52,968 bases of DNA from Gemmatimonadaceae bacterium. GTDB lineage: Bacteria > Gemmatimonadota > Gemmatimonadetes > Gemmatimonadales > Gemmatimonadaceae. Positions within the stretch are counted from its first letter, which is position 1. The number at the start of each line of letters is the position of its first letter. The translations under genes were made by a program, and so were the position numbers. The DNA lies in NCBI GenBank assembly GCA_022843265.1, contig JALHNZ010000022.1, positions 1-52,968 on the forward strand, given 5' to 3'. The notes under the pieces are model-generated. The model worked only from the letters and a program-made list of their open reading frames with translations, did not search any database and was not told the origin of the DNA. This document shows positions 17,261 through 48,936 of the stretch, piece by piece.

Positions 17261-17414
17261 TCGGCGATGATGGGGTAATGCGGCGTGGTACGCTGCATCA
17301 CCCCCAGTAGTCACGTGGGGGCGTGCCGGTGTATTCGGGACCTGCATGGAGCGCATGCGGGTACTGCAACATCACATGTCTCTCGCGGAGGAACCCTTGC
17401 GTTCAGATCATGAC

Positions 17415-18668
17415 ATGGCAGGTGCCGTACGTCGACCTGTATCGGCCCTGCTGGCGGCTGGCGCGCTGCTGCTGAGCGCGTGCAGCGATGCGACCGCTCC
17501 GATCGGCAGCACGCCGGAGCCACTCACTGCGCTGCCGCGCACGCTCACGGCGCTCGAGCAACAGGCGATTTCGGCGAGCAATACGTTTGGCTTTGCGCTG
17601 CTGCGTGAAGTGGCGGCGGACAAGCCAAATGAAAACATCGTGCTCTCGCCGTTCAGCGCACACGTTGCGCTCGGTATGGCTTATGCCGGTGCTGACGGTA
17701 GCACGGCCGACTCCATGCGCGTCGCACTCGGCTGGGGCGCGCGTTCGCGCGCCGAGGTGCTGGCAGGTTACAAGGAGTTGCCAGGATTGATCCTGTCGCT
17801 GGACCCACAGGTAGATCTGCGCAACGCCAACTCGCTGTGGGTGCGCCAGGGATTTCCCATCTTGCCAGCGTACACGGAAGAGATGCGTTCCGTGTTCAAT
17901 GCGGACGTGCGCACCGGAGACTTTGGACCGACCACGGTGGCCGCGATGAACGCGTGGGCGTCGGAGAAGACCAACGGCAAAATACCGAAGGTGGTGGAGT
18001 CGTTGGGTGCCGATGCGGTGGCCATGTTGATGAACGCGCTCTATTTCAAAGCCAGCTGGCGCGACCGGTTTGATGTGGCCAAGAGCCGCGATATTCCGTT
18101 TACCACCGCATCCGGCGCCAAGCCATCGGTGCGTACCATGTTTCGCAGTGGCGAAAATATTGGTTACCGCGAAGCGTTCGGTGCACAGTGGGCGGAGTTG
18201 CCCTATGGAAACAGCGCATTTGTGATGACGCTGGTGCTGCCCTCAAGCACCGCAACGCCGCGGCAATGGTTGGCCGGTTTTGACGCATCGCAGTTTCAAA
18301 CGACGGTGCAGCGTCTCGACTCGGCCAGGGTGGAGCTGGCGCTTCCGAAGTTCCGGTTGCCGCTCAAGTACGCGCTCAAGGAGCCGCTCTCGCGCATGGG
18401 CATGGGCATCGCGTTCCAGGACCGTGTGGCCAACTTCCGGCGTATTGCCAATGCCGAGCTTTCCATTTCCCACGTCACGCAGGATGTGTTCATCGACGTG
18501 AACGAAGAGGGGACCGAGGCTGCGGCAGTCACTCAGGTGGGAATTCGCCTCACATCGGCGCCCGTTATTCCGGTCATGACGCTCGATCGGCCGTTCCTGT
18601 TCTTTATTCGCGAACGCCTGAGTGGTACGATTCTCTTTGCCGGAATTATTGAGAATCCGCAAATGTAG
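17415..18668 (+). CDS. Serpin (serine protease inhibitor), lipoprotein
   Basis: 417 residues. A lipobox (LLLSAC, Cys23) makes it a membrane-anchored, probably periplasmic or surface lipoprotein. Serpin hallmarks: SPFSAHVALGMAYAGADGST (about 75), NSLWVRQGFPILPAY, MNALYFKASWRDRF (about 205), and the C-terminal DRPFLFFIRERLSGTILFAGII. The hinge DVNEEGTEAAAVTQ has small residues at P12-P10, the inhibitory type; counting from it puts P1-P1' near Thr-Ser in IRLTSAP, so an elastase-like or other non-trypsin protease might be inhibited. Start at ATG 17415 gives a proper signal; longer frames exist. The next gene begins 12 bases on. Confidence 0.92.
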   Translation: MAGAVRRPVSALLAAGALLLSACSDATAPIGSTPEPLTALPRTLTALEQQAISASNTFGFALLREVAADKPNENIVLSPFSAHVALGMAYAGADGSTADSMRVALGWGARSRAEVLAGYKELPGLILSLDPQVDLRNANSLWVRQGFPILPAYTEEMRSVFNADVRTGDFGPTTVAAMNAWASEKTNGKIPKVVESLGADAVAMLMNALYFKASWRDRFDVAKSRDIPFTTASGAKPSVRTMFRSGENIGYREAFGAQWAELPYGNSAFVMTLVLPSSTATPRQWLAGFDASQFQTTVQRLDSARVELALPKFRLPLKYALKEPLSRMGMGIAFQDRVANFRRIANAELSISHVTQDVFIDVNEEGTEAAAVTQVGIRLTSAPVIPVMTLDRPFLFFIRERLSGTILFAGIIENPQM

Positions 18669-20385: not shown

Positions 20386-21186
20386 GTGATAACGCATGAA
20401 CCGGTGACCGCTCGTGATGCCGACGCGATTGCACACCTTCGTCTCGACGGCAAAGTCGCGATTGTAACCGGCGGTACGCGCGGCATTGGATTCGCGGCCG
20501 CCACCACGCTGGCCCGCGCAGGTGCACGGGTTGTGATTGCCAGCCGCAAGCCCGAGCATGTGGCATCGGCCGAGCTCGCACTGCGCAATGATGGTCTCGA
20601 CGTGACCGGCATTGTGGCCAACATGAGTCACATGGATGATGTGCGCGGCCTCGCCGCGCGCACGGTGGAGGCCTACGATGGCATTGATATCATCGTGAAC
20701 AACGCCGCCACGAACCCGGTCTTCGGGCCGCTGCAAACACAGGGAGAAGAGGTGTTTGCCAAGATCATGGCGGTGAATGTCATGGGCGTCCTTGAGCTGT
20801 GTCGGTCGTCGCATTCGGTCATGCAGTCGCGCGGCGGCGGTTCGATCGTGAATATCTCATCGATCGGTGGCGTCTCGCCCGAGGCGGGTCTCGGATTGTA
20901 TTCGGTGAGCAAAGCGGCGCTGATCTCGCTTACCAAGGTGATGGCCATGGAGTGGGGCGCCGACGGCATTCGCGCCAACGCCGTCTGTCCCGGGCTCATC
21001 AAAACGCGTTTCAGCAAAGCGCTCTGGGATGATCCGGCTATTGCGCACTCGATCATGGACAAACAGCCCATCGGTCGTATCGGCACCCCTGATGATATCG
21101 CAGGGCTGATCCTGTTTCTCGCGAGCGGCGCGTCGGCGTACTGCACGGGCGGTGTGTATATGGCAGAAGGCGGATATCTGCTGTGA
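20386..21186 (+). CDS. SDR oxidoreductase of 4-hydroxyacid-type operon
   Basis: 266 residues, classic short-chain dehydrogenase. Cofactor motif TGGTRGIGFAA (about 29-39), NNAATNP (about 106), catalytic Ser in NISSIGG and Y-S-V-S-K (about 164-168), and CPGLIKTRF. By position in the cluster it would be the LvaD-like enzyme, interconverting 4-keto- and 4-hydroxyacyl-CoA, but SDR substrates cannot be read from sequence. Start is GTG 20386, with GGAG 6 bases upstream. The stop overlaps the next gene's GTG start (GTGA), giving strong coupling. Alternative: a 3-oxoacyl reductase of ordinary fatty acid metabolism. Confidence 0.85.
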   Translation: MITHEPVTARDADAIAHLRLDGKVAIVTGGTRGIGFAAATTLARAGARVVIASRKPEHVASAELALRNDGLDVTGIVANMSHMDDVRGLAARTVEAYDGIDIIVNNAATNPVFGPLQTQGEEVFAKIMAVNVMGVLELCRSSHSVMQSRGGGSIVNISSIGGVSPEAGLGLYSVSKAALISLTKVMAMEWGADGIRANAVCPGLIKTRFSKALWDDPAIAHSIMDKQPIGRIGTPDDIAGLILFLASGASAYCTGGVYMAEGGYLL

Positions 21187-22367
21187 GTGCACACGAGGCG
21201 CTGCTTGAGAACGCGCGGGCATTTGTTCACGCCGAGCTGATTCCACGGGAACGTGAGATGCTGCACAACGACTGGGCGACGAACGCTCCGTTGTTGGCGC
21301 AGCTTCGCGAACAGGCGCGCACGCGCGGACTGTGGGCGCCCTTTCTGTCGCCATCGCACGGTGGGCCGGGGTTGCCACTTGAAGCCTTTGCGCGACTCTC
21401 CGAGGTGCTCGGCTGGACACCGTTCGGTCACTACGTGTGCAACTGTCAGGCGCCGGATGTTGGGAACATGGAGTTGCTGCACATGTTCGGTACGCCCGAG
21501 CAGCAGCACGCTTGGCTGCATCCGTTGGCGCAGGGTGCGATTCGTAGCTGTTTTGCGATGACGGAACCTGATCTCGCCGGCAGCAATCCTACGCAGCTGG
21601 CCACACGCGCCGAGCGCGATGGCGACGAGTACGTAATCAGTGGACACAAGTGGTTTACCTCGAGTGCCGACGGGGCGTCGTTCGCCGTGGTGATGGCGGT
21701 AACAAATCCTGACGCCGAACCGCACGCTCGTGCGTCGCAAATCATTGTGCCGCTGCCATCGCCAGGCTTCACGCTGGTGCGCAACATCTCCGTGATGGGC
21801 GAAACCGGAGGTGGATGGGCGAGTCACGCGGAAGTGACGTTCGAGCATGTGCGCGTTCCGGTGACCAATCGTCTGGGTGCAGAGGGCGCAGGCTTTGCGC
21901 TGGCACAAGAGCGGTTGGGACCGGGACGCATTCACCACTGCATGCGCTGGATTGGCGTGTGTGAGCGGGTGTTCGATCTCATGTGCCGGCGCGCTGTGTC
22001 GCGTGAGTTGGCGCCTGGAGATCCGCTCGCCAACAAGCAGGCGGTGCAGTTCTGGATTGCCGATTCACGCATTGAAATTCACGCGGCACGATTGATGGTG
22101 CTGGATGCGGCGGCACGTATCTCACGTGAGGGCCAGCGCGCGGCCCGCGCGGAGGTTGCGTACATCAAGGTGTTTGTGGCGAATGTGTTGCAGCGTGTGC
22201 TCGATCGCGCGCTGCAGGCCCACGGTGCGCTGGGCATGACAGATGACACTCCGATCGCCTGGTGGTACCGGCACGAGCGCGCCGCGCGCATTTACGACGG
22301 TGCCGATGAAGTGCACAAGAGCGTGATTGCGCGTCGGGCGTTGGCGCCGTACATGGGTGGGCGGTGA
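21183..22367 (+). CDS. ACAD11-type acyl-CoA dehydrogenase
   Basis: 394 residues, the standard ACAD length. FAD-dependent fold with MTEPDLAGSNPTQ (about 124), SGHKWFTSSADG (about 158), VMGETGGGWASH and QAHGALGMTDD (about 344). The usual catalytic Glu motif YEG is YDG here (IYDGADEVHKSV, about 370), so Asp replaces Glu; this feature and GPGRIHHCMR recall the ACAD10/11 group, which acts on 4-phosphoacyl-CoA. With the kinase next to it, the likely role is eliminating phosphate from 4-phosphoacyl-CoA to form enoyl-CoA. The GTG start overlaps the SDR stop by 4 bases. A plain alpha,beta-dehydrogenase is the alternative. Confidence 0.85.
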   Translation: MSAHEALLENARAFVHAELIPREREMLHNDWATNAPLLAQLREQARTRGLWAPFLSPSHGGPGLPLEAFARLSEVLGWTPFGHYVCNCQAPDVGNMELLHMFGTPEQQHAWLHPLAQGAIRSCFAMTEPDLAGSNPTQLATRAERDGDEYVISGHKWFTSSADGASFAVVMAVTNPDAEPHARASQIIVPLPSPGFTLVRNISVMGETGGGWASHAEVTFEHVRVPVTNRLGAEGAGFALAQERLGPGRIHHCMRWIGVCERVFDLMCRRAVSRELAPGDPLANKQAVQFWIADSRIEIHAARLMVLDAAARISREGQRAARAEVAYIKVFVANVLQRVLDRALQAHGALGMTDDTPIAWWYRHERAARIYDGADEVHKSVIARRALAPYMGGR

Positions 22368-23458
22368 GCGATCGCGTGGGCGGCCCGCATGACACGGTGC
22401 GTGTGCGCGCCGGTGAAGAGTTGGACGCGGCGTCGCTGACGGTCTGGTTGCACGGCCATGCGCCGGAGTTGCTTGGCCCATCCACTGCAGCGCTGCAGAT
22501 CACGCAGTTCGGTGGCGGTTTTTCGAATCTGACGTATCTCGTGCAGGCGGGTGAGCAGCAGTTTGTGCTGCGCCGTCCGCCGCGTGGTGTTGGGCGCGGT
22601 GTGGCGCACGATATGTCGCGCGAGTATCGGCTGCTGCGTGCGTTGCATCCGGCGGGTGTACCAGTGCCGCGCGCGCTTGCGTTCTGCGACGATGATTCGG
22701 TGCTCGGCGCGCCGTTTTATCTGATGGAGCATGTGGACGGCGTGATCTTGCGACAGACAGCGCCCGCGCATGTACGTTTTGATGCAGACGTGGCGCGCGG
22801 ACTCGCCGACGCCTTCGTGGCACAGCTGGTTGCGCTGCACGCGCTTGATGTCTCGGCGAGTGGGCTGGCTGAGCTCGGCCGAGCAGATGGGTATGTCGCA
22901 CGACAGGTTGCCGGGTGGACCAAACGCTGGATTGCGTCCCAGACGAGTGTGGTGCCGGACATGGACGCTGTTGCACAGTGGCTCGCGGCGAATCAGCCCG
23001 CTGAAGTGGGCGCCGCACTGCTGCACAACGATTTCAAGTACGACAACCTTGTCCTTGATCCAGCCAACGCAACACACATTCGCGCAATTCTCGACTGGGA
23101 AATGGCCACGATCGGTTGTCCGCTCATGGATCTCGGCACGACGCTCGCGTACTGGGTGCAGGCGGATGATCCGCCATTGTTACGTGCGCTCGGGCTTGGC
23201 ATTACTGCGTATCCCGGCAGTCCCACGCGCAGCGAGCTGGTGCGAATGTACGAGCGTTCGAGTGGAAGCGCGGTGGCGCAGCCTGTCTTTTACTACGTGT
23301 ATGGGCTGTTCAAGCTGGCTGTGGTCGCGCAACAGATTTACGCGCGTCACGTACGCGGACTCACCAGCGATGCGCGATTTGCCCAGTTGGACAAAGCGGT
23401 CGCGCTGCTCTCGAACCTCGCGGTGCGCAGCGTCGACACGGCCTCGATCGGACGCTAG
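22364..23458 (+). CDS. APH-fold phosphotransferase, LvaA/ACAD11-kinase-like
   Basis: 364 residues. Protein-kinase-like aminoglycoside phosphotransferase fold: FGGGFSNLTYLV (about 46), LRRPP (Arg/Lys region), catalytic LLHNDFKYDNLVLD (about 222) and metal-binding ILDWEMATIGCPLMDLG (about 243). In ACAD10/11 and in LvaA this fold phosphorylates the 4-hydroxyl of a hydroxyacyl-CoA. Its GTG start overlaps the ACAD stop (GTGA), so the three genes form one coupled operon. A LvaB-like helper and a CoA ligase were not seen in the cluster. Antibiotic resistance is unlikely given the context. Confidence 0.85.
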   Translation: MSDRVGGPHDTVRVRAGEELDAASLTVWLHGHAPELLGPSTAALQITQFGGGFSNLTYLVQAGEQQFVLRRPPRGVGRGVAHDMSREYRLLRALHPAGVPVPRALAFCDDDSVLGAPFYLMEHVDGVILRQTAPAHVRFDADVARGLADAFVAQLVALHALDVSASGLAELGRADGYVARQVAGWTKRWIASQTSVVPDMDAVAQWLAANQPAEVGAALLHNDFKYDNLVLDPANATHIRAILDWEMATIGCPLMDLGTTLAYWVQADDPPLLRALGLGITAYPGSPTRSELVRMYERSSGSAVAQPVFYYVYGLFKLAVVAQQIYARHVRGLTSDARFAQLDKAVALLSNLAVRSVDTASIGR

Positions 23459-24237: not shown

Positions 24238-25401
24238 TCAGTACACTTCAAACAATCCGGCTGCGCCCATGCCGCCACCAATGCACATCGTGACGAGTCC
24301 GAGTCCGCCACCGCGACGTTGCAGCTCATGCACCAGCTGCGTGGTCAGTTTGGCACCAGTTGCGCCCAACGGATGACCAAGCGCAATCGCGCCGCCATTC
24401 ACATTGGTGATCGCCGGGTCCATTCCCAGATCGTTCATGACGGCGAGGGCCTGCGCCGCGAACGCTTCGTTGAACTCAATGAGCTTGACGTCACTGAGCG
24501 AAACACCGGCGCGTGCGAGCGCTTTGGGTACCGCATTGATCGGGCCAATGCCCATGATGTCGGGCGACACGCCGGCCGTGGCAAACGTCACGAACCGCGC
24601 GATGGGTTTGAGCCCGAGTGCATCGGCTTTGGCGCGACTCATGAGCAATACGGCCGACGCGCCATCTGAGAACGGGGATGCATTGCCCGCTGTCACCGTG
24701 CCCTTGGCGGAGAATGCAGGGCGAAGCGCGGCCATCTGCTCGCGCGTGGTTTCCGGACGCGGGGTTTCATCTACCGTGAAGACGTGCTCCGTTGTTGTGC
24801 GACGCGCACCCTCCCAGCTGTCGCGCGTTACCGTGACAGGCACGATTTCTGGCGCAAACACTTTGCTTGCGAGCGCCGCACCCGCTTTCTGCTGTGAAGC
24901 AAACGCAAAGTCATCGGCCATCTCTCGCGTGATGCCCCATTGTTTGGCCACACGCTCGGCTGTGAAACCCATGCCGATATAACTCTCGGTGATTTCCGGC
25001 GAGAGCCGCGTGTGATATCCAGACATTGGCACCTGCGACATCATCTCGATGCCGCCGGCGAGAATCACATCAGCATGACCCGCGATGATTGCCTGCGCGC
25101 CGTACGCTACCGCCTGCAGGCCAGACGAACAAAACCGATTGATGGTCGCGGCTGATGTTTCCACCGGGAAGCCCGCTCGCAACCAGGCGAGTCGCGCGTG
25201 GTTGAGCCCCTGCGAGGCTTCGGGCATGGCACAGCCCCACTGCACATCATCAACAATGGCGGCATCAATACCGGCCCGCGCGATGGCTTCGCGCATCACC
25301 GCAGACGAGAGATCAACCGGATGAATGGACGCCAGTGCGCCGTCTGCTTTGCCGCGTGCGACGGCCGATCGCACAGCGCTCACGATTACGACTTCAGTCA
25401 T
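24238..25401 (-). CDS. fadA: Acetyl-CoA C-acyltransferase (thiolase)
   Basis: 387 residues, typical. Catalyses thiolytic cleavage of 3-ketoacyl-CoA to acetyl-CoA and a shortened acyl-CoA. Catalytic Cys in NRFCSSGLQAV (about 87), His in GGAIALGHPLGATGA (about 342), second Cys in TMCIGGGMGAAG (about 372), and FNEAFAAQ (about 312). The ATG at 25401 has GAGGAG in front. It is 22 bases downstream of the multifunctional oxidation gene and shares its operon; together they cover the last three steps of beta-oxidation. Cytoplasmic. A terminator separates it from the CHRD gene. Confidence 0.94.
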   Translation of the reverse strand: MTEVVIVSAVRSAVARGKADGALASIHPVDLSSAVMREAIARAGIDAAIVDDVQWGCAMPEASQGLNHARLAWLRAGFPVETSAATINRFCSSGLQAVAYGAQAIIAGHADVILAGGIEMMSQVPMSGYHTRLSPEITESYIGMGFTAERVAKQWGITREMADDFAFASQQKAGAALASKVFAPEIVPVTVTRDSWEGARRTTTEHVFTVDETPRPETTREQMAALRPAFSAKGTVTAGNASPFSDGASAVLLMSRAKADALGLKPIARFVTFATAGVSPDIMGIGPINAVPKALARAGVSLSDVKLIEFNEAFAAQALAVMNDLGMDPAITNVNGGAIALGHPLGATGAKLTTQLVHELQRRGGGLGLVTMCIGGGMGAAGLFEVY

Positions 25402-25423
25402 GGATTCTGTCTCCTCGTCGCAA

Positions 25424-27733
25424 TCAGTTACGAAGCGGTTTGCCCGTGGTGAGCATGTGCTCAATCCGGGCCTGAGTTTCTTTCGTGCCGAGCAGCATGA
25501 GGAACTGTTCACGCTCAAGATCCAGCAGATCCTGTTCGCTCACGTCCCGTGGTGCGCCGTCGCCGCCGCACAAGACGTAGGCTACGGATCGGCCAACGCG
25601 CAGATCGTGCGCACTCGCCTGACCGGCCTCTCCGGCTGCCCACAGTGCGTACTGCAAGTTGCCAAAGCCTTCGCGGCCCAGTGCACGCATGCGCTTTTCC
25701 GCTGGCGTCACGTAGTCCGGTGCCAGGTCGAGCACACGTTGACGCGCGTCGGAGAGCAACGTGTCGCGATTCATGCTGATGCGATCGCCTTCGCGTAGAA
25801 AGCCCATCGCGCGTGCTTCGGGTGCGCTTGTGCTGGTGGCGGCAAACGCAATGAGCTTGAACGCGCGCTTGATCGCTTCAAACGGATCGGCTTCGTCGTA
25901 CGGTGCGAGCGCTTCGGTAAACCGGAACGCGAGTTCCTTGGTACCACCACCACCAGGAATCACACCCACGCCTACCTCAACGAGGCCCATGTACGTTTCG
26001 GCCGCCGCCTGCACCCGATCGGCGTGCAGCACGAATTCGCTGCCACCACCAAGAGTGAGACCGTGCGGCGCCACGACGACGGGGAACGGTGCGCGCCGAA
26101 TCGACATCACGCTTTGCTGAAACGCGTTGATGCTCTCTTCCAGCTCATCCCACGCACCTGCGGCAACACCGAACGATACGGCCGCCAGATCAGCACCGGC
26201 ACTGAAGGTGCGTGCGTCGTCATTGCCAATCACAAGGCCCACGTACCCACCGCGCTCCACTTTGCGCAGCGATGCGGCCAGGCCTTCCATCAAACCCTGA
26301 CCCAGTGAATTCATCTTGGAGCGGAACTCAAAGCACAACACACCTTCGCCAAGATCCACCAATCGTGCAGACCCGAAGTCTTCGATCGTGCGGCCGGCGG
26401 TGTGTTGCAATGCCAGATTGATGTTGCCAGGAATGCTCGGCACGGTTTCATACACGCCGGCGTATGTGAGAAATTCTCCGCCCTTGTAGAACGCGCCGTT
26501 GGCGGCGTCCAGCAGTACCGGCACGCTGTCGCCGCGCGCGGTGAACTGCGCGCGCAACCAGTCATGGCCAAGCAAGTCCATCACCTGGAACGGTCCGATC
26601 TCCCAGCCATAGCCCCACTGCAGGGCACGATCAATCGATACCAGATCGTGCGAGAGTGATTCGGCGAGTGTCAGCGTGTAGTGCGCGGCGTCAAGCAAAT
26701 GATCGCGCAAAAACGCTCCGTGCGCACCGCCGAGGTCGCGCGCGCCGGCCAGTCGTGCGGCGTGTGGTTGACGCGTGAGTGATCCAACATCTCCACCACT
26801 CATGCGATTCCCGGGCGCATAGGCTGCGGTTTTCCAATCATAGGTGAGAATGCCGTCTTTCACCTTCTGATAAAAACCACCACCGGTTTTGTCGCCGAGT
26901 TTTCCCTGCGCAATGAGTGCATGCACCCAGTCAGGAAGCGCGAGATCTTCACCGGTCTGCTGGCTCATGCCTTTGGTGACATGGCCAAGCACGTCGAGTC
27001 CACTGAGGTCACCCGTGCGAAACGTGGCCGACTTGGCGCGACCCACCAGTAAGCCAGTCAGTCCATCGACTTCGTCGATGGTGAGATCATGCTGCATCAT
27101 GCGACGCATGGTGCTCACCATGCCGTATACGCCCAGTCGATTGGCGATGAAGCCCGGAACGTCTTTGGCAATCACGGTGCCTTTGCCAAGAATGCGCTCG
27201 GCGAAGTTGCGCATGGCACCAATCACGGCCGGATCTGTTTCCGGTGTTGGAATCAGTTCCAGCAAATGCATGTAGCGCGGCGGATTGAAAAAGTGCGTGC
27301 CAAGAAAACGGCGACGGAATTTTTCTGATCGGCCTTCGAGCAGCACGGACATGGGTATGCCGCTCGTGTTCGTGGTCACGATCGCCGATGCTTTGAGCAG
27401 CGGTTCCAGTCGTGTGAACAGCTGCTGTTTGGGCTCGGGCAACTCGATGATCGCTTCCACGATCCAGTCGCACTCCGAGAGCCACTCCAGATGGTCTTCC
27501 GTATTGCCGCAACGCACGCGCGCCGCGGCACTGCTGTGCATGAACGCGGCGGGTTTGGCTTTGATAGCTTTTTGCAGGCCGGCTTTGGCCGGGCCGCTGC
27601 GATCGGGGAACCCCCGTTCGGGGGAACCGGGAACGTCGAGCAGAACGACGCGGAGACCGGCTGAGGCAGCGAGCGCAGCGATGCCGCTACCCATCGCACC
27701 GGCACCCACGACACCGACGGTCGTGACGCGCAT
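25424..27733 (-). CDS. fadN: 3-hydroxyacyl-CoA dehydrogenase/enoyl-CoA hydratase (FadN-type)
   Basis: 769 residues. N-terminal NAD domain: GVVGAGAMGSGIA (about 6-18), TTNTSGIP and HFFNPPRYMHLLELI (catalytic His, about 148). Then 3HCDH C-terminal segments, and from about 455 an enoyl-CoA hydratase/isomerase domain with oxyanion and Glu motifs (FSAGADLAAV, HGLTLGGGSEF, GLVEVGVGVIPGGGGTKEL). This dehydrogenase-first order is the FadN arrangement, opposite to FadB. It hydrates enoyl-CoA and oxidises the hydroxyacyl-CoA to 3-keto form for the thiolase. ATG 27733 has GGAG 6 bases upstream. It may use the enoyl-CoA made by the ACAD11-type module nearby; that link is inferred. Confidence 0.93.
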   Translation of the reverse strand: MRVTTVGVVGAGAMGSGIAALAASAGLRVVLLDVPGSPERGFPDRSGPAKAGLQKAIKAKPAAFMHSSAAARVRCGNTEDHLEWLSECDWIVEAIIELPEPKQQLFTRLEPLLKASAIVTTNTSGIPMSVLLEGRSEKFRRRFLGTHFFNPPRYMHLLELIPTPETDPAVIGAMRNFAERILGKGTVIAKDVPGFIANRLGVYGMVSTMRRMMQHDLTIDEVDGLTGLLVGRAKSATFRTGDLSGLDVLGHVTKGMSQQTGEDLALPDWVHALIAQGKLGDKTGGGFYQKVKDGILTYDWKTAAYAPGNRMSGGDVGSLTRQPHAARLAGARDLGGAHGAFLRDHLLDAAHYTLTLAESLSHDLVSIDRALQWGYGWEIGPFQVMDLLGHDWLRAQFTARGDSVPVLLDAANGAFYKGGEFLTYAGVYETVPSIPGNINLALQHTAGRTIEDFGSARLVDLGEGVLCFEFRSKMNSLGQGLMEGLAASLRKVERGGYVGLVIGNDDARTFSAGADLAAVSFGVAAGAWDELEESINAFQQSVMSIRRAPFPVVVAPHGLTLGGGSEFVLHADRVQAAAETYMGLVEVGVGVIPGGGGTKELAFRFTEALAPYDEADPFEAIKRAFKLIAFAATSTSAPEARAMGFLREGDRISMNRDTLLSDARQRVLDLAPDYVTPAEKRMRALGREGFGNLQYALWAAGEAGQASAHDLRVGRSVAYVLCGGDGAPRDVSEQDLLDLEREQFLMLLGTKETQARIEHMLTTGKPLRN

Positions 27734-27848
27734 GAACACTCCGGAGGGCGCGCGGTGTCGCGGGGCGGCCGGACAGTCAGGAGGACCGCACCACGGCGCA
27801 CGCCCGTTCCGCCACGCGAAAGGGGACTCCTGAAATGTTCAGCGCGGG

Positions 27849-44654: not shown

Positions 44655-46058
44655 TTGCGCCATTCGTCCAGAGCATTTGTTCTCGTGCCATCAATATTCC
44701 GGGTTTTGCGCCGTCCGTGGTGTGTCCTGACGCTGTGCGCGTGCGTGTGCGCGCTACTCACGCCCCGTGCGGCCAGCGCGCATGAAATGCCACAACGAGT
44801 GGCGATCACCCTGCTGGTCAAGCCTGAGGGTGGACGCCTGCGGGTGCTGGTGCGCGTACCGCTTGAAGCGATGCGCGATGTCGACTTTGTCACGCGTGCG
44901 GACGGCACGCTCGATATCGCGCTCGCCACGCCACTGTTGCGTGAGGCGGCCACCGTGTGGCTGGTATCGGGGCTCTCCGTGTACGAGGATGGCAGGCCGA
45001 TGCCTGCGCCCACAGTGCGCGCAACGCGACTCGCGGAGCCCTCTGATCGTGCGTTTTCGCGCTATGACACGGCACTCGACGCGCTGCAACGCGCTGGTGT
45101 TGATACGCTCATTCGCGTGCGGCGAGAGCAGGCACTGCTCGATGTGTGGCTCGACTATCCAGTCGCCAACACCAACGCGCGATTTGATGTGGAGCCGAAA
45201 CTCGCGAATCTCGGTGTGCGCACCGTGACCGTGTTGCGGTATGTGCTCGACGACAATACCGAGCGTGCCTTCCAGTACACGGGGGATCCCGGTCGAATCG
45301 CGCTTGATCCGCGCTGGTATCAGGCCGCACGAACGTTCGTGTCACTCGGTTTCACGCACATTCTCGGCGGCATCGACCATCTGTTGTTTGTGTTCTGCCT
45401 TGTGATTCCGGTGCGGCGGTGGCGTCCGCTGGTGGCGATTGTTTCGGCCTTCACGGTGGCGCATTCGCTCACCCTCGCCACCGCGGCCTTCGGCTACACA
45501 CCGGATGCGCTCTGGTTTCCGCCGCTCGTCGAAACGCTCATCGCGGCGTCTATCGTGTTCATGGCCATTGAAAACGTGATCCGCCCGGAAAAGGCGCTTG
45601 AACGCCGATGGCCCATGGCGTTCGGGTTTGGGCTCATTCACGGTTTTGGCTTTTCGTTCGCCCTGCAGGAATCGCTGCAGTTTGTGGGCTCGCACCTTGT
45701 CACCTCGCTCGCCGCGTTCAATGTCGGCGTGGAGTTGGGGCAGGTGGCGGTGCTCGCGATCGCGGTGCCGCTGCTTGCACTGGTCGCGAGGCGCGTGCCC
45801 AACCGTTATGCGCTCACGGTGGCGCTGTCCGCGCTCGTGGCACACTCGGCGTGGCACTGGATGACGGAACGCGGCGCCGAGCTGCTCTCGTACGACCTGT
45901 CGTTGCCGTCGCCAAGCGCCGTGTTGTGGCTGTCACTCCTGCGGGGCGCTCTGCTGCTGGCGGTGGCGGCTGCCGTTGCCTGGGGCTTGTCGGGGGTATT
46001 TGATCGCCTGTCCAGGGAGCCGGGCGGTGGCGCCGCGACCTCCGAGCGGTCGGCGTAA
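44655..46058 (+). CDS. HupE/UreJ-2 membrane protein with extracytoplasmic domain
   Basis: 467 residues. A signal (TLCACVCALLTPRAASA) and an exported beta-rich domain (about 42-225) precede a membrane half of about six to seven helices. That half has the HupE/UreJ_2 signature: GFTHILGGIDHLLFVFCLVIP (about 233), AFTVAHSLTLATA, PLVETLIAASIVFMAIEN, GFGLIHGFGFSFAL (about 322) and FNVGVELGQVA. The family is thought to move nickel, cobalt or other metals; substrate here is not visible. Start uncertain: TTG 44655 and GTG 44685 are candidates. Upstream of the cytochrome c gene by about 100 bases. Confidence 0.85.
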   Translation: MRHSSRAFVLVPSIFRVLRRPWCVLTLCACVCALLTPRAASAHEMPQRVAITLLVKPEGGRLRVLVRVPLEAMRDVDFVTRADGTLDIALATPLLREAATVWLVSGLSVYEDGRPMPAPTVRATRLAEPSDRAFSRYDTALDALQRAGVDTLIRVRREQALLDVWLDYPVANTNARFDVEPKLANLGVRTVTVLRYVLDDNTERAFQYTGDPGRIALDPRWYQAARTFVSLGFTHILGGIDHLLFVFCLVIPVRRWRPLVAIVSAFTVAHSLTLATAAFGYTPDALWFPPLVETLIAASIVFMAIENVIRPEKALERRWPMAFGFGLIHGFGFSFALQESLQFVGSHLVTSLAAFNVGVELGQVAVLAIAVPLLALVARRVPNRYALTVALSALVAHSAWHWMTERGAELLSYDLSLPSPSAVLWLSLLRGALLLAVAAAVAWGLSGVFDRLSREPGGGAATSERSA

Positions 46059-46683: not shown

Positions 46684-46716
46684 CACGTGATCCCTACACG
46701 ATCGAGAGTGCGCGTC

Positions 46717-48936
46717 ATGGCAACATCGACGAGATCCCGACAGAATATTGCGTCCGCGGTCATGGGCGTCCTGTCCCTTGCAGGCGTTATCTGGTGGCAC
46801 GCGCAAGCGCTGGTCGCCGCGCCGCCCGCGCCGGAGGCTGTAGTGCTTGAGCGCGGTAATGTGCCAGGTGAATGGCGCTATTGGGGCGGCGACGCGTGGA
46901 GTTCGCGCTACTCGCCGCTCGATCAGATCAACGCGCGCAACTTTGACTCGCTTGAAACGGCGTGGCAGTGGAATGCCGGCGCGTTTGGAAAAGACGAGTA
47001 CTATCGCACGACGCCGTTGTATGCGAACGGACGTCTCTTTACGGTGGCGTCAACACGTCGTGTCGCCACGGCGATTGATCCGGAAACCGGCGAGACGCTC
47101 TGGATGTGGCGCCTTGACGAAGGCATTCGCTGGCAGAAGGCGCCACGCCAGTTCGCGGGCCGTGGTGTGGCCTACTGGAACGAAGGCAACGAAGAGCGAG
47201 TGATTGTGGTGACGCCCGGTTTTCACATGGCGTCGCTCGATGCAAAAACCGGCGTGCCTGATCCGAAGTTTGGCAAGAATGGAATCGTCGACTTGCAGGA
47301 TGGTTTGGGATTGCCACTGGTGCCGTTGGCGGTAGACGACTCGGGCCCGCTCATTATTTCTGATGCGGCGCCAGCACGCAAAGCGAAGCCGGGTGAGACG
47401 TGGGATCCAGTGCGCAAGATTGGCGCGGATGGCACGATCGGCATTGATCCGTCGCTTGGTCAGATCGCCAACAGCTCACCGGCCATCATTGTTGGTGATG
47501 TGATCGTCGTGGGCAGCTCGTCGATTCACGGCTACTATCCGATTCGTGTGCGCAACCTTCCAGGTCATGTGCGCGGCTTCGATGTGAAGACGGGTAAACA
47601 ACTCTGGAAGTTCAATCTCGTGCCGGAGCCCGGTGAGTTTGGTGCGGACACCTGGAAGAATGGCTCGAAGGTTGGTGACGAAGGTGTCGGCAAGAACGAT
47701 GCGTGGGCCACGCTGTCTGCCGATCCGGAACTTGGATTGGTCTACATTCCGGTGGGCATGCCGCTCATGGACGAATACGGCGGTCATCGTCCGGGCGACA
47801 ACCTGTTTGGCAACAGTCTCGTCGCCATCGATGTTAAAACCGGCAAGCGCAAGTGGCATTTCCAGATGGTGCACCATGACATCTGGGATTACGACACGCC
47901 AATAGCGCCGAATCTGATGGATGTCACGATTGACGGTCGCGCGCGCAAGATCATTGCGCAGCCCACCAAGCAGGGGTGGTTGTACGTCTTTGATCGCGCC
48001 ACCGGCGTCCCGATCTGGCCGATTGAAGAAAAGCCCGTGCTCAAGAGTGAAGTGCCAGGTGAGGTGAGTGCACCAACGCAGCCGATTCCCAGCAAGCCGG
48101 TACCGTACGCGCAGCAGGGACTCGAAGAAGAAGATCTCATTGACTACACACCCGCGATCAAGGATTCCGCGCTGAAGCTGGCGCGTCGTTGTCGCATGGG
48201 ACCGTACTTCATTCCCGCGTCGCTCAGCGATGGCAGCACGCCGAGTGGTTTGCGATGTTCGTGGTACGCACCGGGTGCTGCGGGTGGTGTGAATATCGAT
48301 GGCGGTGCGTCGGTTGATCCGGAAACGGGCATGCTCTATGTGGCGTCACAGAGTGGACTGAGCACGATCTCGTTGCAGAAGGATCCGTGCTCGGAGTTCC
48401 GTTACAGCTCACCACGCGACAACTGTGGCTTGATTGGCGCGCTTGATCCGCCGCCGGGTTACAAGCCGCCGTCGGAGCGTCCGGGCGGTTTCGCGGGTCG
48501 CGGCGGTGCGTCGCAGATTGGTGGCGTGTCGATTCTCAAGCCGCGTGAGCTTGGTGGTGTGACGGCGTACAACATGAACACGGGCGAGAAGGCGTGGTGG
48601 ATTCCGAACGGTGGATTTATTCCGACGACAAGTCGTGATCCGTTGTTCGCCGGTGTCACGTTGCCCGCGCGTTCATCGGCGGGTCAGGCGCAGGTGATCA
48701 CGACCAAGACGCTGATGATTTACGGAACGGGACGCAGCGGTGGCGTTCCGGGTCAGCCGCCGCAACTCTTTGCCGTTGACAAGGCCACGGGCAAGCAGGT
48801 TGGTGCGGTGGGGATTCCGTCAAAGACCACCGCGGTGCCGATGACGTTCATGCACAAGGGCAAGCAGTACATCGTGTTTGCGACGGGCAGTGGCTCGAAT
48901 GCGACGCTGGTGTCGTTGAGGTTGCCGGCGAAGTAA
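46717..48936 (+). CDS. PQQ-dependent quinoprotein dehydrogenase
   Basis: 739 residues. Eight-bladed PQQ propeller: YWGGDAWSSRYSPLDQIN (about 54-71), repeated blade tags such as VATAIDPETGETLW, DVKTGKQLWKFN, VTAYNMNTGEKAWW and FAVDKATGKQVGAV, and HHDIWDYDTPIAPNLMDV (about 387-404) as in glucose/alcohol dehydrogenases. An N-terminal hydrophobic stretch (ASAVMGVLSLAGVIWW) may anchor it at the membrane. There is no CxxCH, so electrons must pass to a separate cytochrome, presumably the upstream gene product. Substrate unknown. Start at ATG 46717. Confidence 0.92.
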   Translation: MATSTRSRQNIASAVMGVLSLAGVIWWHAQALVAAPPAPEAVVLERGNVPGEWRYWGGDAWSSRYSPLDQINARNFDSLETAWQWNAGAFGKDEYYRTTPLYANGRLFTVASTRRVATAIDPETGETLWMWRLDEGIRWQKAPRQFAGRGVAYWNEGNEERVIVVTPGFHMASLDAKTGVPDPKFGKNGIVDLQDGLGLPLVPLAVDDSGPLIISDAAPARKAKPGETWDPVRKIGADGTIGIDPSLGQIANSSPAIIVGDVIVVGSSSIHGYYPIRVRNLPGHVRGFDVKTGKQLWKFNLVPEPGEFGADTWKNGSKVGDEGVGKNDAWATLSADPELGLVYIPVGMPLMDEYGGHRPGDNLFGNSLVAIDVKTGKRKWHFQMVHHDIWDYDTPIAPNLMDVTIDGRARKIIAQPTKQGWLYVFDRATGVPIWPIEEKPVLKSEVPGEVSAPTQPIPSKPVPYAQQGLEEEDLIDYTPAIKDSALKLARRCRMGPYFIPASLSDGSTPSGLRCSWYAPGAAGGVNIDGGASVDPETGMLYVASQSGLSTISLQKDPCSEFRYSSPRDNCGLIGALDPPPGYKPPSERPGGFAGRGGASQIGGVSILKPRELGGVTAYNMNTGEKAWWIPNGGFIPTTSRDPLFAGVTLPARSSAGQAQVITTKTLMIYGTGRSGGVPGQPPQLFAVDKATGKQVGAVGIPSKTTAVPMTFMHKGKQYIVFATGSGSNATLVSLRLPAK

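Follow-up and report, generated by a model that had tools for sequence, protein, structure and literature searches.

An SDR, ACAD and kinase operon in a Gemmatimonadaceae genome, predicted to phosphorylate 4-hydroxyacyl-CoA and eliminate the phosphate

The window, i.e., the whole stretch of DNA that was analysed, covers 52,968 nucleotides of one contig from a Gemmatimonadaceae bacterium. The genes considered here, and two sites within the second of them, are:

20386-21186, + strand: SDR-family oxidoreductase, 266 aa, GTG start, TGA stop (Pfam adh_short_C2, 1e-59)
21183-22367, + strand: ACAD homologue of the ACAD11/LvaC type, predicted 4-phosphoacyl-CoA phosphate-eliminating enzyme, 394 aa, GTG start, TGA stop (Pfam Acyl-CoA_dh_1, 3e-38)
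21912-21947, + strand: RLGPGRIHHCMR segment of the ACAD, residues 244-255; R244, R249, H252 and R255 align with mouse ACAD11 R626, R631, H634 and R637
22296-22298, + strand: catalytic Asp of the ACAD, D372 (IYDG), aligning with mouse ACAD11 D753
22364-23458, + strand: APH-fold kinase, predicted 4-hydroxyacyl-CoA kinase, 364 aa, GTG start, TAG stop (Pfam APH, 1e-53)
24238-25518, - strand: thiolase (acetyl-CoA C-acyltransferase), probable downstream beta-oxidation enzyme (Pfam/family matches; conserved neighbour)
25424-27739, - strand: FadN-type 3-hydroxyacyl-CoA dehydrogenase/enoyl-CoA hydratase (3HCDH/ECH), probable downstream beta-oxidation enzyme (Pfam/family matches; neighbourhood survey)

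The SDR, ACAD and kinase ORFs are all complete, and their Pfam domain matches back their coding status. The bases read GTGA at 21183-21186 and at 22364-22367, i.e., the stops of the SDR and ACAD genes overlap the start of the respective next gene. This is the arrangement described in the first-pass annotation, which had also placed a thiolase and a FadN-type enzyme nearby; we find both on the opposite strand, behind a CHRD-domain protein gene that lies downstream of the kinase gene. The source genome encodes one ACAD of the ACAD11/LvaC type and one such kinase.

We compared the window ACAD with solved proteins (phmmer against the PDB). Its best matches are the ACAD11 entries 2WBI, 8V3U and 8V3V as well as 4HR3, with 290-297 bits, and the top match to an ordinary ACAD is 1UKW with 166 bits. 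Within the ACAD domain it is 42-43% identical to ACAD11, and 38% identical to the LvaC of lva-type operons. For its AlphaFold model (pLDDT 92), VIA-align yields Z scores of 52.0, 50.0 and 49.7 for 4HR3, 2WBI and 8V3U (rmsd 1.6-2.2, 387-389 aligned) vs. 41.8 or less for every other fold match, where such fold searches report similarity only. The record of 4HR3, an ACAD of Mycobacterium abscessus, states no function.

The first-pass annotation had drawn attention to an Asp in place of the catalytic Glu and to a GRIHHCMR segment recalling ACAD10/11, and both observations are borne out by the alignment. The Glu of the YEG motif of ordinary ACADs is replaced by D372, and GRIHHCMR spans residues 248-255, while the ordinary ACADs that were aligned (L002-L004 from the source genome and Thermus 1UKW) show IYEG and no HCMR. 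Across about 120 aligned members of the ACAD11/LvaC family, R244, R249, H252, R255, H215 and D372 are invariant; with the exception of R249, they are missing from the same ordinary ACADs. That is, the Arg/His/Arg cluster with which ACAD11 contacts the 4-phosphate (R626, H634, R637) is kept in the window protein as R244, H252 and R255. Replacing these three residues of ACAD10/11 by Ala or Leu gave the most disruptive substitutions for elimination, and Asn in place of the catalytic Asp gives the ACAD-dead form (PMC12440821).

Family placement was computed from a maximum likelihood tree of 83 ACAD sequences (quick search, SH-aLRT support, without bootstrap). Here, the ACAD11/LvaC family, including the window ACAD, is split from the ordinary alpha,beta-dehydrogenases with an SH-aLRT support of 100. 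Within the family we observe three clades, namely LvaC from lva-type Pseudomonas loci, ACAD11, and a third, deep clade (36 rows, support 100) that holds the window ACAD and spans Gemmatimonadota, Bacteroidota, Chloroflexota, Acidobacteriota, Planctomycetota and others. No assayed enzyme of this third clade was found in the searched literature. Phylogeny and structure prediction, both proposed as checks in the first-pass annotation, thus place the ACAD with ACAD11 and its relatives, and the name "split ACAD11/LvaA-type" given there is right in part. The ACAD11 part stands and kinase and ACAD are indeed separate genes; the LvaA label does not fit the ACAD, since the published naming uses LvaA for the kinase and LvaC for the ACAD, and being split is the normal bacterial state, as in the lva operon. 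Two other Gemmatimonadota genomes, G011 and G039, carry differing versions (L022/L059 and L021/L058): G011 has an LvaC-clade ACAD with its kinase, and G039 an ACAD from a mainly actinobacterial sister clade, again with its kinase.

For the kinase, the closest solved proteins by sequence are 9O56 (273 bits), the ACAD11 kinase domain (189-192 bits) and 3DXP, which favours the first-pass reading as well. By fold, the best match of the kinase model is 3DXP (Z 33.1), followed by the 25-hydroxy steroid kinase (25-HSK) entries 9FT5 and 9FSG with Z of about 28. The records of 9O56 and 3DXP, both APH-type kinases, state no function. The catalytic residues D223 and N228 lie within the motif HNDFKYDN (221-228) and align, together with R180, with D220, N225 and R176 of ACAD11. 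An Arg preceding a Glu is found as R86-E87 in the window kinase; by our count the matching Arg of mouse ACAD11 stands at position 84, which does not agree with the published R86 beside the alpha-C glutamate, and we make no use of that residue. In the kinase tree, the window protein groups with the kinases of its neighbours and with 9O56, apart from both the ACAD11 and the LvaA-like kinases. In one Deinococcus locus (L044) and two Bacillus loci (L116, L127), a kinase of the window's clade is paired with an ACAD11-clade ACAD; since different clades are combined there, the two modules may have been exchanged, as these sequences suggest.

We surveyed gene linkage in 108 Gemmatimonadaceae genomes, 48 with and 60 without the ACAD. 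Every one of the 48 ACAD-positive genomes also has the kinase, vs. 3/60 ACAD-negative ones, i.e., co-occurrence is near-obligate (Fisher p of about 2e-27, which is not a strict probability since the genomes are related). Both genes lie side by side on one strand in 44/48 ACAD-positive genomes, and the pairing is therefore not due to chance. Gemmatirosa kalamazoonensis, a cultured species of the family, has both. The SDR gene adjoins the ACAD gene in 21 of the 48. FadN is found in all 48 and in 29/60 of the remaining genomes; it lies at most 12 kb from the ACAD gene in 27/48, of which 26 are convergent, spanning nine genera, and it is often the FadN/thiolase pair that is convergent near the ACAD. 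In Bacteroidota such as Aquiflexum and one genome of the Cyclobacteriaceae, SDR-ACAD-APH is followed by a 3-hydroxyacyl-CoA dehydrogenase.

In ACAD10/11 as well as in LvaA/C, the 4-hydroxyl group is phosphorylated and subsequently lost by FAD-dependent elimination, which yields 2-enoyl-CoA with no net redox change; transient flavin reduction is the mechanism proposed by the ACAD10/11 authors (PMC12440821, PMC11342911). Since the residues are conserved, the same reactions are the best prediction for the window proteins, and we are confident, short of certainty, that the operon encodes two proteins for the reaction known from ACAD10/11 and LvaA/LvaC, plus an accessory reductase. The chemistry and the substrate that we infer are as follows. 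4-Hydroxyacyl-CoA would come either from a CoA ligase whose gene lies elsewhere or from reduction of 4-oxoacyl-CoA by the SDR. The APH-fold kinase would then phosphorylate its 4-hydroxyl group, and the ACAD-fold flavoprotein would grip the 4-phosphate via R244, H252 and R255. D372 would take the C2 proton and, with FAD being used transiently, the phosphate would be expelled to give 2-enoyl-CoA, for which the FadN-type enzyme and the thiolase presumably complete beta-oxidation. Against this reading, the window kinase shares only 28% identity with the kinase of lva-type operons, and no ligase gene is linked to the operon.

Since the window ACAD is only about 38-43% identical to ACAD11 and to the lva-type LvaC, its substrate could differ. 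The same kinase and elimination chemistry might have a different hydroxyacyl-CoA as its substrate (with a branched, a hydroxylated isoprenoid or a steroid side-chain acyl group) instead of a straight-chain 4-hydroxy one. Membership in the third clade, at that distance from the best-known enzymes, would fit this, as would the rank of 25-HSK directly behind 3DXP among the fold matches of the kinase model, because it means that this superfamily includes hydroxyl kinases with other lipid substrates. On the other hand, all ACAD11 residues that contact the phosphate are retained and, by sequence, 9O56 and the ACAD11 kinase domain are far nearer to the kinase (273 and 192 bits) than 25-HSK is (51 bits), such that we regard another substrate class as unlikely. 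We rejected identity with the steroid kinase itself, which is a structural relative that is far weaker by sequence; its own lyase gene was not yet known when it was described (PMC8449060). A broader version of the predicted elimination reaction is a tentative possibility, on balance doubtful: the third clade would be a multi-phylum group of 4-phosphoacyl-CoA eliminating systems, commonly ordered SDR-ACAD-kinase, with genes for FadN-type enzymes or 3-hydroxyacyl-CoA dehydrogenases next to them. Its substrate range would differ from levulinate as well as from the 4-hydroxy fatty acids of mammals, and the SDR would supply or epimerise the 4-hydroxy carbon.

The Pfam domains, which are the generic ACAD and APH ones, would also fit an ordinary FAD-dependent alpha,beta-dehydrogenase next to a kinase that is unrelated to it. 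However, Glu has been exchanged for Asp, the protein has the HCMR cluster, and the tree sets it apart from such dehydrogenases; we reject this reading as very improbable, the more so as every ACAD-positive genome has the kinase. Still less credible, with hardly any probability left, is an aminoglycoside-modifying kinase. The APH fold and family name point that way, and 9O56 is labelled an aminoglycoside phosphotransferase, but the NCBIfam APH(3') model scores 24 bits vs. a cut-off of 205. Such low NCBIfam scores, the strict linkage to the ACAD gene and the matches to the ACAD11 kinase domain led us to discard aminoglycoside modification.

Within the predicted two-protein system, the role of the SDR is the weakest part of the operon reading. 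The protein shows TGGTRGIG, a Ser-Arg after beta2 and YSVSK, i.e., the catalytic YxxxK motif; an Arg after beta2 suggests NADP(H) in SDRs. Its nearest solved protein is DHRS4 (198 bits). In the SDR tree it clusters with cassette SDRs located beside the ACAD in Bacteroidota and Gemmatimonadaceae, a clade different from that of the SDR of lva-type operons, to which it is 32% identical. For these two reasons, homology does not fix its pathway role, and we rejected it as an LvaD orthologue. Reduction of 4-oxoacyl-CoA to 4-hydroxyacyl-CoA is plausible, with both role and direction being what we infer. A close relative is located about 1.2 kb from FadN in four genomes (G180, G015, G179, G181), of which G180 and G015 have neither the ACAD nor the kinase. 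The SDR may thus not belong to the 4-hydroxyacyl step, and a more general role in beta-oxidation is possible.

Compared with known systems, the operon resembles the mammalian proteins in its APH-type kinase and its Asp-containing ACAD with R626/H634/R637 equivalents. ACAD11 and ACAD10 are single fused polypeptides whose ACAD and kinase belong to other clades than those of the window, where the genes are separate and overlapping. Closer in layout is lvaABCDE of Pseudomonas (levulinate catabolism), which has kinase, ACAD and SDR as separate genes and an ACAD with IYDG and HCMRW. The full layout of these loci, which were picked by gene order and not by strain name, reads PrpR-type regulator, APH, DUF6285, ACAD, SDR, AMP-ligase, symporter; neither the regulator nor DUF6285, ligase or symporter adjoins the window operon. 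The ACADs of loci chosen in this way are 36-37% identical to human ACAD11, unlike the published 62%/56% between LvaC and ACAD10/11. Separate bacterial proteins are also known from Burkholderia pseudomallei, whose kinase and ACAD orthologues, chosen for closeness to ACAD10, each replaced its counterpart in ACAD10 in vitro (PMC11342911).

From its place in the Pseudomonas layout (L158-L161), DUF6285 (PF19802) holds the LvaB position, which gives this helper a family name; it occurs in 6/59 sampled Pseudomonas genomes. As anticipated in the first-pass annotation, neither an LvaB nor a CoA ligase gene is adjacent: DUF6285 has no match in the source genome (95% complete), and a Pfam scan of 30 window ORFs gave no AMP-binding CoA ligase. 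The same 30 ORFs contain no lva-style symporter and no sigma-54 regulator, both of which are present in the reference lva loci. Eleven AMP-binding (AMP-forming) ligases are encoded elsewhere in the genome and could supply CoA ligation. The further suggestion that the operon is a leaner version of the system does not hold. ACAD10/11 have no LvaB part either, and the lva cluster of P. citronellolis LA18T comprises kinase, ACAD and SDR without lvaB, together with a histidine phosphatase gene and a nearby lvaE2 ligase (PMC6692424). By this comparison, the lack of LvaB is ordinary, i.e., neither new nor leaner.

Kinase/elimination chemistry has precedents in human ACAD10/11 and in Pseudomonas, and that the window operon is a member of this kind is well supported. 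The role of ACAD10/11 in the catabolism of 4-hydroxy acids was recognised only in 2024-2025 (PMC11342911, PMC12440821), and levulinate in Pseudomonas is the main subject of the bacterial papers we found. The compact LvaB-free cassette is found in slightly fewer than half of the sampled Gemmatimonadaceae genomes as well as in Bacteroidota, Chloroflexota and others, a distribution that points to phosphorylation-driven loss of the 4-hydroxyl group as a widespread step of bacterial lipid degradation rather than a levulinate speciality. Judging from the sequences, 4-hydroxy fatty acyl-CoAs would very probably enter normal fat breakdown after phosphorylation and phosphate removal by the operon. Given its predicted activity, the kinase/ACAD pair would also allow the FAD 'rebound' elimination to be studied with just two bacterial proteins.

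Elsewhere in the window, a Serpin-family protease inhibitor gene (17346-18668, Pfam E 3e-92) lies beside IspH and a UshA-like nucleotidase, an order that is kept in two genomes of the same genus (G002 and G003). A gene for a PQQ-dependent dehydrogenase beta-propeller is located at 46687-48936, with a HupE/UreJ-type gene upstream (44655-46058).
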